From Bifidobacterium breve (lineage in GTDB: Bacteria; Actinomycetota; Acidimicrobiia; Acidimicrobiales; Acidimicrobilacustridaceae), in the NCBI GenBank assembly GCA_945878725.1, contig CAMCTY010000006.1, forward strand, positions 1 to 64,000: 64,000 nucleotides of DNA, given 5' to 3'. Positions 2,549 through 36,265 of the stretch are shown here, piece after piece. Every line of letters begins with the position of its first letter. Positions within the stretch are counted from its first letter, which is position 1. A program made the position numbers and the translations under genes. The notes under the pieces were generated by a model that was not told the origin of the DNA, did not search any database, and was given only the letters and a program-made list of their open reading frames with translations.

Positions 2549-3703
2549 TCAGCCGGTGAAGCTCGGCGTCGTTACGTCGATGACCGGATCGAGGCTCGCT
2601 GTTGTCGTGACCGGCAACGGCTCGACAAACGGGAAGACCGTTGACGTAAGTCCCCAGACCGCCTGATAGGTCGCATAGATATCTGCTTCACCGCTGCTGT
2701 ACGGCGAGGCCAATGCCCCTGCCCCGGGTCCGGACTGGATCACCCAGTGTGCGAGCGAAGTCATCGGTGACTCTTCGTTGATACGCCATGGAGACGCGTC
2801 CGGGTCTCCCCCGGCGGCGGAGATTGCCTGAACGACGAGAGCCGTGGAGTTCGGATCGCTCGAATCTCCGATGAACTGGCCGAAGCCACCCGGTGCTGTC
2901 CCCGAGAACGACTGCAATCCGCTCAACCACTCCAACGCAGCAGCGACCGAACCGGTCTCTCCGGCAGCCACAAGGGCTTGAATCGCCAGCGAGGTGCTCC
3001 CCGATTCGGCGCTCTCGAAGTCACCAACTGATGATTCGCCGCACGCAACAAGTACACCTACAACTCGGGCGCGGTAGCCCTCCCATGCTCCTGCTGCTGA
3101 GTTACCCGCCGGACATTGCTGCTCTTCCAGCCAAGTGACGGCATCAATCGGAACGGTCTCCCCTGCTGCCGTCAGAGCGATGACGGACAACGCATGGGTG
3201 GTGACGGGTGTGTACTCGTCGCCGGTCGCGCCGAATAGTCCGGATTCGGAGACCTCGTAACGTGCAAGAATCCCTGCGACCAAATCGGTTGCGGGCATCC
3301 CGAACGAACGCGGATCTCGCCCCGTGGCGTAGGCCAAGATCACGAGCCACGCGTTGCGACCGGCGACATCAGACGATCCGCCAGTGACGTAGTTGCTCAC
3401 GTTTGATTCGATGTACGACATGGCACGGCCGAGAGCGTCGGGTTGCGTGCCAACTGCAGCTAGACCGAGCGCGACGTTGAGGGCCCAGTCAACTGAGGGA
3501 TCCAGTGAATACGGATTGAGAACTGAACCGTCAGGGGCAACTTGTTCCGCCATCCATGCGGCCGCTCCATCGGCGTTCGCCGAACGGATCGGGGCAGCGG
3601 TGGATGGCAACGCTGAAGCACAAAGAATCGCAAGCGCTAGCAGGACGCCAACCGTTCCTCGACGGTTGCGTACCCGTGGGCTCACGCTGGGGAGAGAAGA
3701 CAT
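2549..3703 (-). CDS. Secreted alpha/alpha-toroid (prenyltransferase/squalene-cyclase repeat) protein, putative B12-binding, transcobalamin-like
   Basis: The 384-residue product has a signal peptide at residues 1-36 (RRGTVGVLLALAILCASALP core, cleavage near STAAP). It then has several repeats of the alpha6-alpha6 toroid type seen in terpene cyclases and in the alpha domain of transcobalamin/intrinsic factor: WMAEQVAPDGS, WLEEQQCPAGN, WLSGLQSFSGT and GGFGQFIGDSSDPNSTALVVQA. It lies behind a cobalamin riboswitch, so a role in capturing or delivering corrinoid outside the membrane is the best guess. No DUF4430 beta domain is visible. The mature protein ends in a Pro/Thr linker (PLPVTTTASLDPV) and the last residues TTPSFTG, a tail shared with the beta-helix protein at 34288. 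ATG 3703 was chosen for the GAGGT ribosome site just upstream and the signal peptide; earlier in-frame codons run into the riboswitch. Confidence 0.85.
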   Translation of the reverse strand: MSSLPSVSPRVRNRRGTVGVLLALAILCASALPSTAAPIRSANADGAAAWMAEQVAPDGSVLNPYSLDPSVDWALNVALGLAAVGTQPDALGRAMSYIESNVSNYVTGGSSDVAGRNAWLVILAYATGRDPRSFGMPATDLVAGILARYEVSESGLFGATGDEYTPVTTHALSVIALTAAGETVPIDAVTWLEEQQCPAGNSAAGAWEGYRARVVGVLVACGESSVGDFESAESGSTSLAIQALVAAGETGSVAAALEWLSGLQSFSGTAPGGFGQFIGDSSDPNSTALVVQAISAAGGDPDASPWRINEESPMTSLAHWVIQSGPGAGALASPYSSGEADIYATYQAVWGLTSTVFPFVEPLPVTTTASLDPVIDVTTPSFTG

Positions 3704-3781
3704 ATCTACCTCATTCATTGGTTTGGACCGACGGGGACCGAAACGACCAATCCCGTGTGTCCTCACCAAGAACCCGATGAC

Positions 3782-3816
3782 AAAAACCGAGAACCGAAGG
3801 AGACATCCGGGCTCGG
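3782..3816 (-). terminator. Intrinsic terminator of the cobalamin riboswitch (expression platform)
   Basis: On the minus strand CCGAG (3816-3812) pairs with CTCGG (3791-3787) around an inner CCGGA/TTCGG helix, followed directly by five T (3786-3782). The strand 3817-3809 (GCCGAGCCC) can instead pair with GGGCTTGGC at 3885-3877, an antiterminator that would exclude the terminator. This suggests transcription is stopped when B12 is bound. Confidence 0.7.
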
Positions 3817-3889
3817 CACCGCAGTCCACGACGGTGAAGGTGAGCCTCAATGTCAGGTTCGGTATTCCGACTCGCCGCCAAGCCCAGAC

Positions 3890-4015
3890 CTGAATGTGAA
3901 CAACCATTCTGGCTTGTACTTAGCGACACACGGTTGCGGGACAGCGCCGGAATCTCACCGAACTTCCCCTCACCAGACATCAACTCTTGAAGAGCCAAGA
4001 CAACCATCGAAACCA
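3890..4015 (-). ncRNA. Cobalamin (B12) riboswitch aptamer
   Basis: Read on the minus strand, the aptamer core is clear: GGGGAAG (3969-3963), then CGGTGAGATTCCGGCG, then CTGTCCCGCAACCGTGTG, and the B12-box-like AAGCCAGAATGG (3915-3904). These match the conserved GGGAA..CGGTG..ATCCGGC.CTG.CCCGC.AC.GT block of the AdoCbl/MeCbl riboswitch family. It lies about 200 bases upstream of the secreted toroid gene, on the same strand. Exact outer ends are uncertain. Confidence 0.9.
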
Positions 4016-4945: not shown

Positions 4946-4975
4946 GTTCTCAACAACAACTGAAGCCATTGATCA

Positions 4976-5235
4976 CTTGCGGGAGAGTCTGATCGAGCAG
5001 CATCCGATCAGCGCCGAAGGAGCAACCCCCCGGGAAACTCTCAGGCCCATGTATCGCTTGTGTAGGCACATCTGGAGAGCAATCATCCGGGCTTACGCTC
5101 ACGATGGTTCACCGAAGGAGAAAGTCCGCGACATCGTGACCGCGACGACGTAACCGTTCCTCTGAGCGAGTACGTCCGGCAGGTCGACCGGTGCAGTGTG
5201 ATGAAACTCTCAGGTCCAACGACAGATCGGGGTCC
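4976..5235 (+). ncRNA. Tandem glycine riboswitch (gcvT element)
   Basis: The first aptamer carries the hallmark segments GGGAGAG (4981-4987), GCGCCGAAGGAGCAA (5011-5025), GGGAAACTCTCAGG (5032-5045) and CTGGAGAG (5072-5079). A second unit follows with CACCGAAGGAGAAAG (about 5110-5124) and GATGAAACTCTCAGGTCC (about 5200-5217). Two aptamers upstream of glycine cleavage genes are the usual cooperative arrangement. The second aptamer is less canonical and lacks an obvious 5' GGAGAG. Confidence 0.92.
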
Positions 5236-34287: not shown

Positions 34288-36054
34288 TCAGCCGGTGAAC
34301 GCAGGCACAACCGGATCGGTGGCGGCACCCGGGGCAACGGTGGTCGTGGTTGGCTCCGGATCAGGCTGGGCTTCGAATGCGCCGATATCAGCCGAAGTTC
34401 CGTAGATGCGAACAAACGGCAGACCACGCTGATCGAATTCGTTGCCGATGAAGGTAACAACAGGGTCAGGGCCGGCGTCAATGGCCGGTGAACCATCAAG
34501 CAGTGCCATTGTCATCGTCGCTCCCCCGTTGTCGGCAAGTGCGCCGACCATCGGGTCAGTAGCCGAGATGTTGTTCGAGCCACTCACGGTGATACGGGAA
34601 TCGACATCGCCAATAAGCGAGTTGTCAGCGGTCACATCCGCGTCAAGGACCGTACCGTAAAGCGCGAGCGGTTCAAGGACCGTACCGTAAAGCGCGAGAT
34701 CGTCGCCGCTGACCACTGAGGAATTGCCCGAAATAATGGTTCCCGAAAGCGTGAGTTGGGCGTTGTCGTAGAGCAACACGCCGCCGCCTCCGTTCGAGGT
34801 ACCAGTAGCGGTATTGCCGACAATGGTCGACTGATTAATCACGGTCGATCCGTAATAGAGAGACAGGCCCCCGCCGTAGAGAGCGCTATTGCCAGTAATT
34901 GTGGAGTTATTGATGGTGAGGCTGTCGCCGCTCATCTTGATTCCACCGGCCCCTTCCGCAGCGGAGTTGCCCGAGATCACTGTGTTGGTGATCGTCGCAT
35001 CGCCGCCGGAGTTGAGGTACAGCGCTCCAGCACCTCCTTCGGTCGAGTTATCAGAAATCGTTGAGTTGGCAATCGTCAACTCACCGGAATTTTCGATGTA
35101 CGCACCGCCGGCCCCGCTGGCGGCTGAATTACCTGAAATGGTGCTGCCGTCGATTGAGACATCCACAATCGAATCCATGATGTAGAAAGCGCCGGCCCAA
35201 GAGTCCGCCGAGTTTTCAAAGAATGTCGAGTCATTGATGACAAGGTTGGACGTTCCGTTGCTGTACAACATCGCAACACCACCATCGCTGATGGCGTAGT
35301 TGCCAGAAAAGTCCGAGGCGCTAATGGTGATGGTCCCGGTTACCTCTGTTGTCGTGAAGAGTGCGCCGCCTTTATCAGCAACGTTGTTCGTGAACGACGA
35401 CCCGCTGATCGTTACGGAGCCACTGTTGTAGGCGTAGACCGCTCCGCCGTTACTTGACGCGTAATTTTCATCGAAGCTCGAGTTGACAATTTCGAGATCG
35501 CCATCATTACCGGCATAGAGCGCAGCTCCGTAGTCTGCTCCGGAACCCGAAATCACGACATCTTCAAGCTTGCCATTGCCGACTTGTTGGAACATGATTC
35601 GGTTTTTCGACAGCGACAGACCGCTAATCACTGCGTCTCCGGTGCCGCCGACATAAAAAAGATCGTAGGAGTCGGGCGCAGCAGTGGTTGTGATTGCCAG
35701 ATTCGCCGAACCACTGCCGGTCAGGCTGATGGCGTTCAAGTTGACAGTGCCCTCGGTGAGGGTGATGGACGTTACGGCAGCATCGAACGTGATGATGTCG
35801 CCGTCAACGGCTGCGAGAGCTGCATCACGCAGTGTGCAGTTGCCCGCAACAACGTCGGAACAACGCGCCGCATCAGCAACGCCGTCTCCAGAAGAGTCAA
35901 CGGTGATCGTGGCTGCCGCACCTGCGGAACCAGCGAATGCGGCAAGGAGCGCACCGGCGCCACCAACCGCCAGGACACCAGAGGCGCCCAGCGCCCGGGC
36001 TCGTGCACGTCTTGCTGACCGGTTCAACGTGGAAACCTCATTGGAAATCTTCAT
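34288..36054 (-). CDS. Secreted right-handed parallel beta-helix protein (polymorphic repeat, choice-of-anchor Q-like)
   Basis: The 588-residue protein has a signal peptide (basic RSARRARARALG, then GVLAVGGAGALLAAFAGSAGA, cleavage near residue 47) and a TLRDA segment near residue 75. Many short repeats of the form (I/V)x(N/G)S(T/S)(I/F)SxN(S/Y)A..GGA(L/V)Y follow, typical of Pmp/beta-helix surface proteins, and then SPAIDAGPDP. The last 30 residues are a Pro/Thr linker (PDPEPTTTTVAPG) and the terminal PVVPAFTG. It is probably exported and attached outside or in the envelope. A 30-bp tandem duplication adds ten residues near residue 455. A remnant of a second copy lies just upstream. Glycine-, Ser- and Asn-rich composition differs from its neighbours. 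Confidence 0.88.
   Translation of the reverse strand: MKISNEVSTLNRSARRARARALGASGVLAVGGAGALLAAFAGSAGAAATITVDSSGDGVADAARCSDVVAGNCTLRDAALAAVDGDIITFDAAVTSITLTEGTVNLNAISLTGSGSANLAITTTAAPDSYDLFYVGGTGDAVISGLSLSKNRIMFQQVGNGKLEDVVISGSGADYGAALYAGNDGDLEIVNSSFDENYASSNGGAVYAYNSGSVTISGSSFTNNVADKGGALFTTTEVTGTITISASDFSGNYAISDGGVAMLYSNGTSNLVINDSTFFENSADSWAGAFYIMDSIVDVSIDGSTISGNSAASGAGGAYIENSGELTIANSTISDNSTEGGAGALYLNSGGDATITNTVISGNSAAEGAGGIKMSGDSLTINNSTITGNSALYGGGLSLYYGSTVINQSTIVGNTATGTSNGGGGVLLYDNAQLTLSGTIISGNSSVVSGDDLALYGTVLEPLALYGTVLDADVTADNSLIGDVDSRITVSGSNNISATDPMVGALADNGGATMTMALLDGSPAIDAGPDPVVTFIGNEFDQRGLPFVRIYGTSADIGAFEAQPDPEPTTTTVAPGAATDPVVPAFTG
34643..34698. repeat. 30-bp tandem duplication inside the beta-helix gene
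   Basis: The 26 bases at 34643-34668 recur exactly at 34673-34698, a 30-base period that encodes LALYGTVLEP twice (second copy ending in LD). It is in frame, so it lengthens the helix by one short unit. Confidence 0.9.
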
Positions 36055-36165: not shown

Positions 36166-36265
36166 TCAGCCGGTGAACGCAGGCACAACCGGATCGGTGG
36201 CGACACCCGAAGCAACAGTTGTGGTCGTCGTCGGCGGAACCGGTTCGGGCTGCACTTCGAGAAGC
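36166..36265 (-). pseudogene. Remnant of a second secreted-protein gene: only the C-terminal tail is left
   Basis: Read on the minus strand, the frame EVQPEPVPPTTTTVASG then VATDPVVPAFTG and a TGA stop matches the C-terminus of the beta-helix protein (EAQPDPEPTTTTVAPG, AATDPVVPAFTG) almost residue for residue. No start codon or upstream coding sequence of that family remains; the preceding gene ends 13 bases upstream in another frame. It probably records a tandem duplication followed by loss, or a tail cassette that has moved. Confidence 0.85.

Follow-up and report, generated by a model that had tools for sequence, protein, structure and literature searches.

The window (the whole 64,000-nucleotide stretch of DNA analysed here) carries on its minus strand a gene for an exported alpha/alpha toroid protein of 384 amino acids (P0001, 2549..3703), which we call alpha. 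On the same strand the sequence shows a ribosome-binding site, GAGG, at 3709..3712, which lies 5 nt ahead of the start codon (ATG, 3703). Further upstream, also on the minus strand, lie a putative intrinsic terminator (3781..3817) and a cobalamin riboswitch aptamer (3839..3992). A 452-residue open reading frame beginning at 3907 was rejected as the gene because its start falls inside the aptamer. Just downstream of alpha, at 2483-2522, two perfectly inverted 19-bp repeats are separated by 2 nt; they may form an operator or a terminator, and they overlap the start of a 141-residue open reading frame (2502-2077, minus strand) containing a cysteine-rich, zinc-ribbon-like motif. At 4970-5227 a tandem glycine riboswitch is found upstream of a gene that by eye encodes a gcvP-like glycine dehydrogenase.

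The alpha protein and its leader

Approximately the first 37 residues of alpha (3593..3703, minus strand) form a signal peptide region. By eye this is a Sec-type signal with a basic n-region, the hydrophobic core VGVLLALAILCASAL and a small-residue c-region, in agreement with an earlier sequence-only reading of this DNA. The remainder of the protein consists of a toroid domain, assigned with AlphaFold2 to residues 38-355 or thereabouts (2639..3592, minus strand), and a C-terminal tail that ends in P-S-F-T-G (2552..2566, minus strand). Two cysteines, C197 and C221, are invariant in all 39 rows of the alpha alignment.

A Pfam search with alpha gave no match to the transcobalamin family, and phmmer with the single alpha sequence found no relative of solved structure. 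Among proteins of known structure, the squalene-hopene cyclases are the closest to alpha in sequence (E 1.6e-23). The DxDD motif of the cyclases occurs in none of 39 alpha-family sequences; the family has D-T-N-S at this place and the window protein has E-S-G-S. Alpha also matches the SCO2321 family (NF053823) in part, with 88.1 bits and E 5.4e-25, under the 300-bit cut-off of that model. From this sequence comparison we regard alpha as a SCO2321 homolog in unpermuted order.

The AlphaFold2 model of residues 38-384, made with 38 homologs, is an alpha/alpha toroid (pLDDT 89.5, pTM 0.87). When the model was compared with the PDB using VIA-align the top structural matches were terpene cyclases (Z 24.9). 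It superposes on the alpha domain of human intrinsic factor (2pmv) with a Z of 20.8, over 242 residues with an rmsd of 3.1. The toroid proposed from the sequence is therefore borne out by the prediction and by this superposition. Many toroid proteins that are not B12 proteins outscore intrinsic factor against the same model, and the predicted fold alone is no proof of B12 binding.

The aptamer was identified with the Rfam cobalamin model (RF00174) in a search of 801 bases. The match runs along the minus strand from 3992 to 3839 and covers the full model, positions 1-189, with 31.3 bits and E 4.6e-6. The gathering score of RF00174 is 31.5 bits; the window aptamer falls 0.2 bits under this and so is unlisted in a default scan. 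The covariance check thus upholds the cobalamin aptamer of the sequence-only reading in its length, and leaves it narrowly short in score. Its place is conserved in relatives. In 32 genomes 33 alpha-gene matches were found, and 27 of them have a cobalamin riboswitch match upstream on the same strand, nearly always at a distance of 95-270 nt; several of these riboswitch matches score above the gathering cut-off. Of the six alpha genes that lack an upstream riboswitch, most sit at the end of a contig or close to it; one (in genome G046) is within an operon that is itself headed by a riboswitch. We therefore accept the window aptamer as a cobalamin riboswitch on grounds of orthology. A 5.8S rRNA match over the same region (16.3 bits) was set aside as chance. 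In another genome, which has two alpha genes, a second cobalamin riboswitch lies directly 3' of alpha at a contig end (G033:C243, L042).

The putative terminator consists of a hairpin (3817-3787) followed by UUUUUG, with a folding energy of -12.8 kcal/mol. This hairpin appears in both the MFE and the centroid folds of the leader. It is not among the terminators listed by a consensus terminator scanner. The terminator that the scanner does propose, at 3791-3773, is a separate hairpin that does no better than shuffles and was rejected. The putative antiterminator is the segment GGGCUUGGC within the aptamer (3877..3885, minus strand). Read from 3885 to 3877, it is complementary at 9/9 bases, including one G-U pair, to the 5' arm of the terminator, GCCGAGCCC (3817-3809). 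The duplex has an energy of -17.4 kcal/mol; when the aptamer was shuffled by mononucleotides, only 0.2% of the shuffles gave a duplex at least this good. Taken by itself, the folding of the entire leader downstream is nothing unusual (z -0.83). Both the terminator and the possible antiterminator had been proposed beforehand, and the two are recovered here. Together they plausibly form a transcription-terminating platform that would switch by competition of the segment with the hairpin.

The beta protein and its ECF operon

The genome of the window is a draft of 2.26 Mb that is 93% complete. It contains one other clear cobalamin riboswitch match, at 11277-11470 of contig C1. This riboswitch heads an operon that encodes a second protein, which we call beta, followed by EcfT, a fused EcfA-EcfA ATPase and, in the S position, a membrane protein. 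The C1 beta protein is secreted, has one C-terminal membrane helix and is related to SCO2322 (E 2e-17). The sequence-only reading had remarked that no beta domain was visible and that no B12 transporter was adjacent. Both remarks are true of the 384-residue protein and its surroundings, but a beta gene and an ECF transporter operon do exist in the genome, on C1 behind the second riboswitch.

The DUF4430 model of Pfam did not find a beta gene in this genome. A Pfam search of 23 beta members gave no transcobalamin-family match and nothing else of use, so the relationship of beta to transcobalamin rests on its predicted fold. The structure was predicted for an ortholog (L118) in place of the window genome's own beta protein, and the model has a pLDDT of 90.1. 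Its top 14 matches in the PDB are all beta domains of transcobalamin, haptocorrin or intrinsic factor, with Z between 12.0 and 12.6. The fifteenth is a Ruminococcus protein (Z 11.3), and the next scores 6.5.

The T component encoded on C1 matches the CbiQ family (PF02361) with E 1e-9, above its cut-off. The ATPase matches ECF ATPase models in two stretches of one chain with E 1e-88, somewhat under the equivalog cut-offs, and it matches the cbiO subfamily model above the cut-off of that model. The membrane protein in the S position has no match in Pfam or NCBIfam, CbiM included. Its predicted substrate therefore rests on the riboswitch and on the beta fold. On the same contig, in the neighbourhood of biotin-type genes and of the beta/ECF operon, is the gene for a helix-turn-helix protein that has both B12-binding domains (G000:C1:17693-18007; L004:12625-13698, minus strand). 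This protein is possibly a B12- or light-responsive regulator.

Going by its named relatives, the window's family is probably one of the Acidimicrobiales. Riboswitches were counted in 61 genomes, that of the window plus relatives. Besides the 27 of 33 alpha genes given above, 36 of the 39 beta places have a riboswitch upstream on the same strand, and 55 of the family's 63 riboswitch matches are explained as lying upstream of alpha or beta. Alpha and beta are unlinked in this family, each with its own cobalamin riboswitch, and they co-occur in most of the members sampled. Among 296 genomes from the phylum, beta is present in 38, and 37 of these carry alpha as well (Fisher p 1e-21). At 32 of the 40 beta places in these genomes alpha is found within 3 kb on the same strand, and the gene order alpha-beta-T-A-S recurs in most of the complete loci examined across the phylum. 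In one genome the two are fused. The resulting protein (L111:6454-9279, 942 residues) joins an alpha toroid to two beta domains, and it also has a signal peptide and cell-wall-binding repeats. The natural fusion argues that the two halves work together.

The profiles of the window's family match homologs from Streptomyces, Nanopelagicales, Micrococcales and Frankiales as two pieces in reversed order, and this is true of both alpha and beta. Judged by their sequences, the two proteins are circularly permuted together in the class Actinomycetes and unpermuted in Acidimicrobiia. The loci compared are L112, L113 and L116-L195. Among 60 loci with both genes, both halves are permuted at 38, neither at 22 and none is mixed. 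The Fisher value for this split (7e-17) overstates its independence because the sequences are related by descent, although the clean split is still striking. Two loci that had seemed to be mixed, L152 and L169, proved from their hit order to be artefacts of the classification cut-off.

A predicted two-chain corrinoid receptor

Methionine synthase (MetH) and two methylmalonyl-CoA mutase chains are present in the genome of the window. CobS was not found in this 93% complete draft, an absence that is provisional given the draft state. The presence of B12-dependent enzymes together with the missing CobS fits a cobamide importer. There is also a weak match to a FecCD-type permease in the genome, which may be another importer of corrinoids or metals.

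The sequence-only reading had suggested that the toroid protein is a transcobalamin-like corrinoid catcher. This is the best-supported reading, with the correction that the window gene supplies the alpha half only, the beta half and the transporter being encoded on C1. We consider that alpha is probably one half, the toroid, of a transcobalamin-like receptor for corrinoids that is made of two chains and feeds an ECF-type B12 importer; alpha alone as the whole catcher ranks below this. Human TC-alpha and TC-beta, when made separately, assemble only with cobalamin (PMC5599065), which makes a two-chain clamp the most likely mechanism. When B12 is scarce both riboswitches would permit expression. 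The window would supply the exported alpha protein, and C1 would supply the beta protein, anchored by its one C-terminal helix, together with the ECF importer (EcfT, EcfA-EcfA and the S component). Outside the membrane alpha and beta would close around one corrinoid, like the separated human transcobalamin domains. With beta anchored in the membrane near the transporter, the clamp would hand the corrinoid to the S component. The imported B12 would serve methionine synthase and methylmalonyl-CoA mutase, and it would also shut off both transcripts, presumably by transcription termination.

A different division of labour could hold in the window's family, in which alpha works alone at the surface and sequesters corrinoids as a store or a decoy, and B12 is taken up by beta and the ECF transporter unaided. 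The two genes are not adjacent in this family, alpha has its own surface-type C-terminal tail, and isolated human TC-beta is able to bind cobalamin by itself (PMC5599065). We think a store or decoy very unlikely: both genes keep their cobalamin riboswitches and co-occur in most of the family members sampled, and a split gene location is no bar to assembly outside the cell.

The five components might also import cobalt or another B12 precursor; outside the cell the toroid and beta proteins would then help with that ligand. In many bacteria cobalt transporters are under the control of cobalamin riboswitches, and CbiQ, the family matched by the T component, is one of cobalt transport. Against this, with CobS not found there is no sign of a complete B12 synthesis to supply with cobalt, the S component has no CbiM match in Pfam or NCBIfam, and the beta fold is specifically that of the animal cobalamin carriers, all of which makes import of such a ligand very unlikely. 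Still more improbable is an enzymatic role, in which alpha would be an exported member of the prenyltransferase/terpene cyclase superfamily, would modify a lipid or a corrinoid and would be B12-regulated by happenstance. For all the similarity of alpha to squalene-hopene cyclases in sequence and to terpene cyclases in structure, its family lacks DxDD in all 39 sequences, and alpha is exported and, in most of the phylum, encoded beside beta and an ECF transporter.

The proposed two-chain receptor shares with animal transcobalamin, intrinsic factor and haptocorrin an alpha/alpha toroid with a beta-grasp partner, secretion and a B12 context. Unlike the animal carriers, its halves are two polypeptides, with no beta domain in the alpha chain. 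It also differs from them in that it has no family match at the level of sequence, is controlled by riboswitches and has an ECF transporter in place of an endocytosis receptor.

Proteins with toroid and SLBB domains encoded near CbiO and CbiQ genes were predicted to be B12 scavengers by Burroughs et al. in 2007 (PMC1796856). In that study the transcobalamin-like SLBB clade occurs in low-GC Gram-positives, planctomycetes and some archaea, and the common architecture is a fusion of toroid and SLBB (PMC1796856). Shared with the window system are the toroid and SLBB-type domains outside the cell and the CbiO/CbiQ-like genes nearby (PMC1796856). The window system differs from these proteins in having separate genes, in belonging to Actinomycetota, in its two riboswitches and in the circular permutation seen in one class.

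Homologous alpha and beta genes are described by the NCBIfam families SCO2321 (NF053823) and SCO2322 (NF040672). These genes are adjacent in Streptomyces and are followed by the same ECF genes. Relative to the window-type proteins both Streptomyces families are circularly permuted, and neither has an assigned function. A literature search, with most subscription papers outside its reach, found no such system described in split, permuted or actinobacterial form, nor any function reported for SCO2321 or SCO2322.

In the vitamin B12 transporter ECF-CbrT the S component itself is described as the substrate-binding protein (PMC5997447). The window system resembles ECF-CbrT in being an ECF-type ABC importer of a Gram-positive bacterium, with B12 here as the predicted substrate (PMC5997447). 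It is unlike ECF-CbrT in that the proposed extracellular two-chain receptor is added, and its S component is without a Pfam or NCBIfam match.

SCO2321 and SCO2322 are widespread actinobacterial families of unknown role, and the two-chain receptor reading offers a function for both. It also offers a route of B12 uptake for free-living actinobacteria that are apparently unable to complete B12 synthesis, and it would extend the architecture of animal transcobalamin to a split bacterial system coordinated by riboswitches. The same two domains occur separated, fused and permuted in nature, which makes it possible to test directly how the two parts of a B12 clamp come together.

The P-x-F-T-G tail

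The C-terminal tail of alpha is a recurrent signature of exported proteins in the window's family. In the genome of the window a search of the DNA for P-x-F-T-G followed by a stop gave 20 matches, compared with 1 for the reversed control. Three are in the window, at 2552-2566 (alpha), 34288-34305 and 36166-36183, and 17 more are elsewhere in the genome. The matches that were inspected are mostly the ends of exported-type open reading frames with Thr/Pro-rich linkers. Genomes of the window's family have between 3 and 36 such tails each, against 0-4 for the controls. In other families of the order the motif is at about the control level, with one exception (G041, 17 tails). No residue follows the glycine of P-x-F-T-G, unlike LPXTG signals. 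P-x-F-T-G is possibly a new envelope-sorting tail.

A broader proposal joins this tail to the receptor. Actinomycetota would have a natural two-chain transcobalamin that feeds an ECF importer, its halves encoded apart, closing on B12 outside the membrane and co-permuted in Actinomycetes, with alpha in the window's family placed on the envelope through a previously undescribed P-x-F-T-G tail. We give this joint reading an even chance. Some alpha proteins carry other apparent surface anchors, seen by eye, instead of the P-x-F-T-G tail. One has three SLH-like repeats (L028:877-2592), and another has IPETG with a membrane helix (L030:1450-2790).
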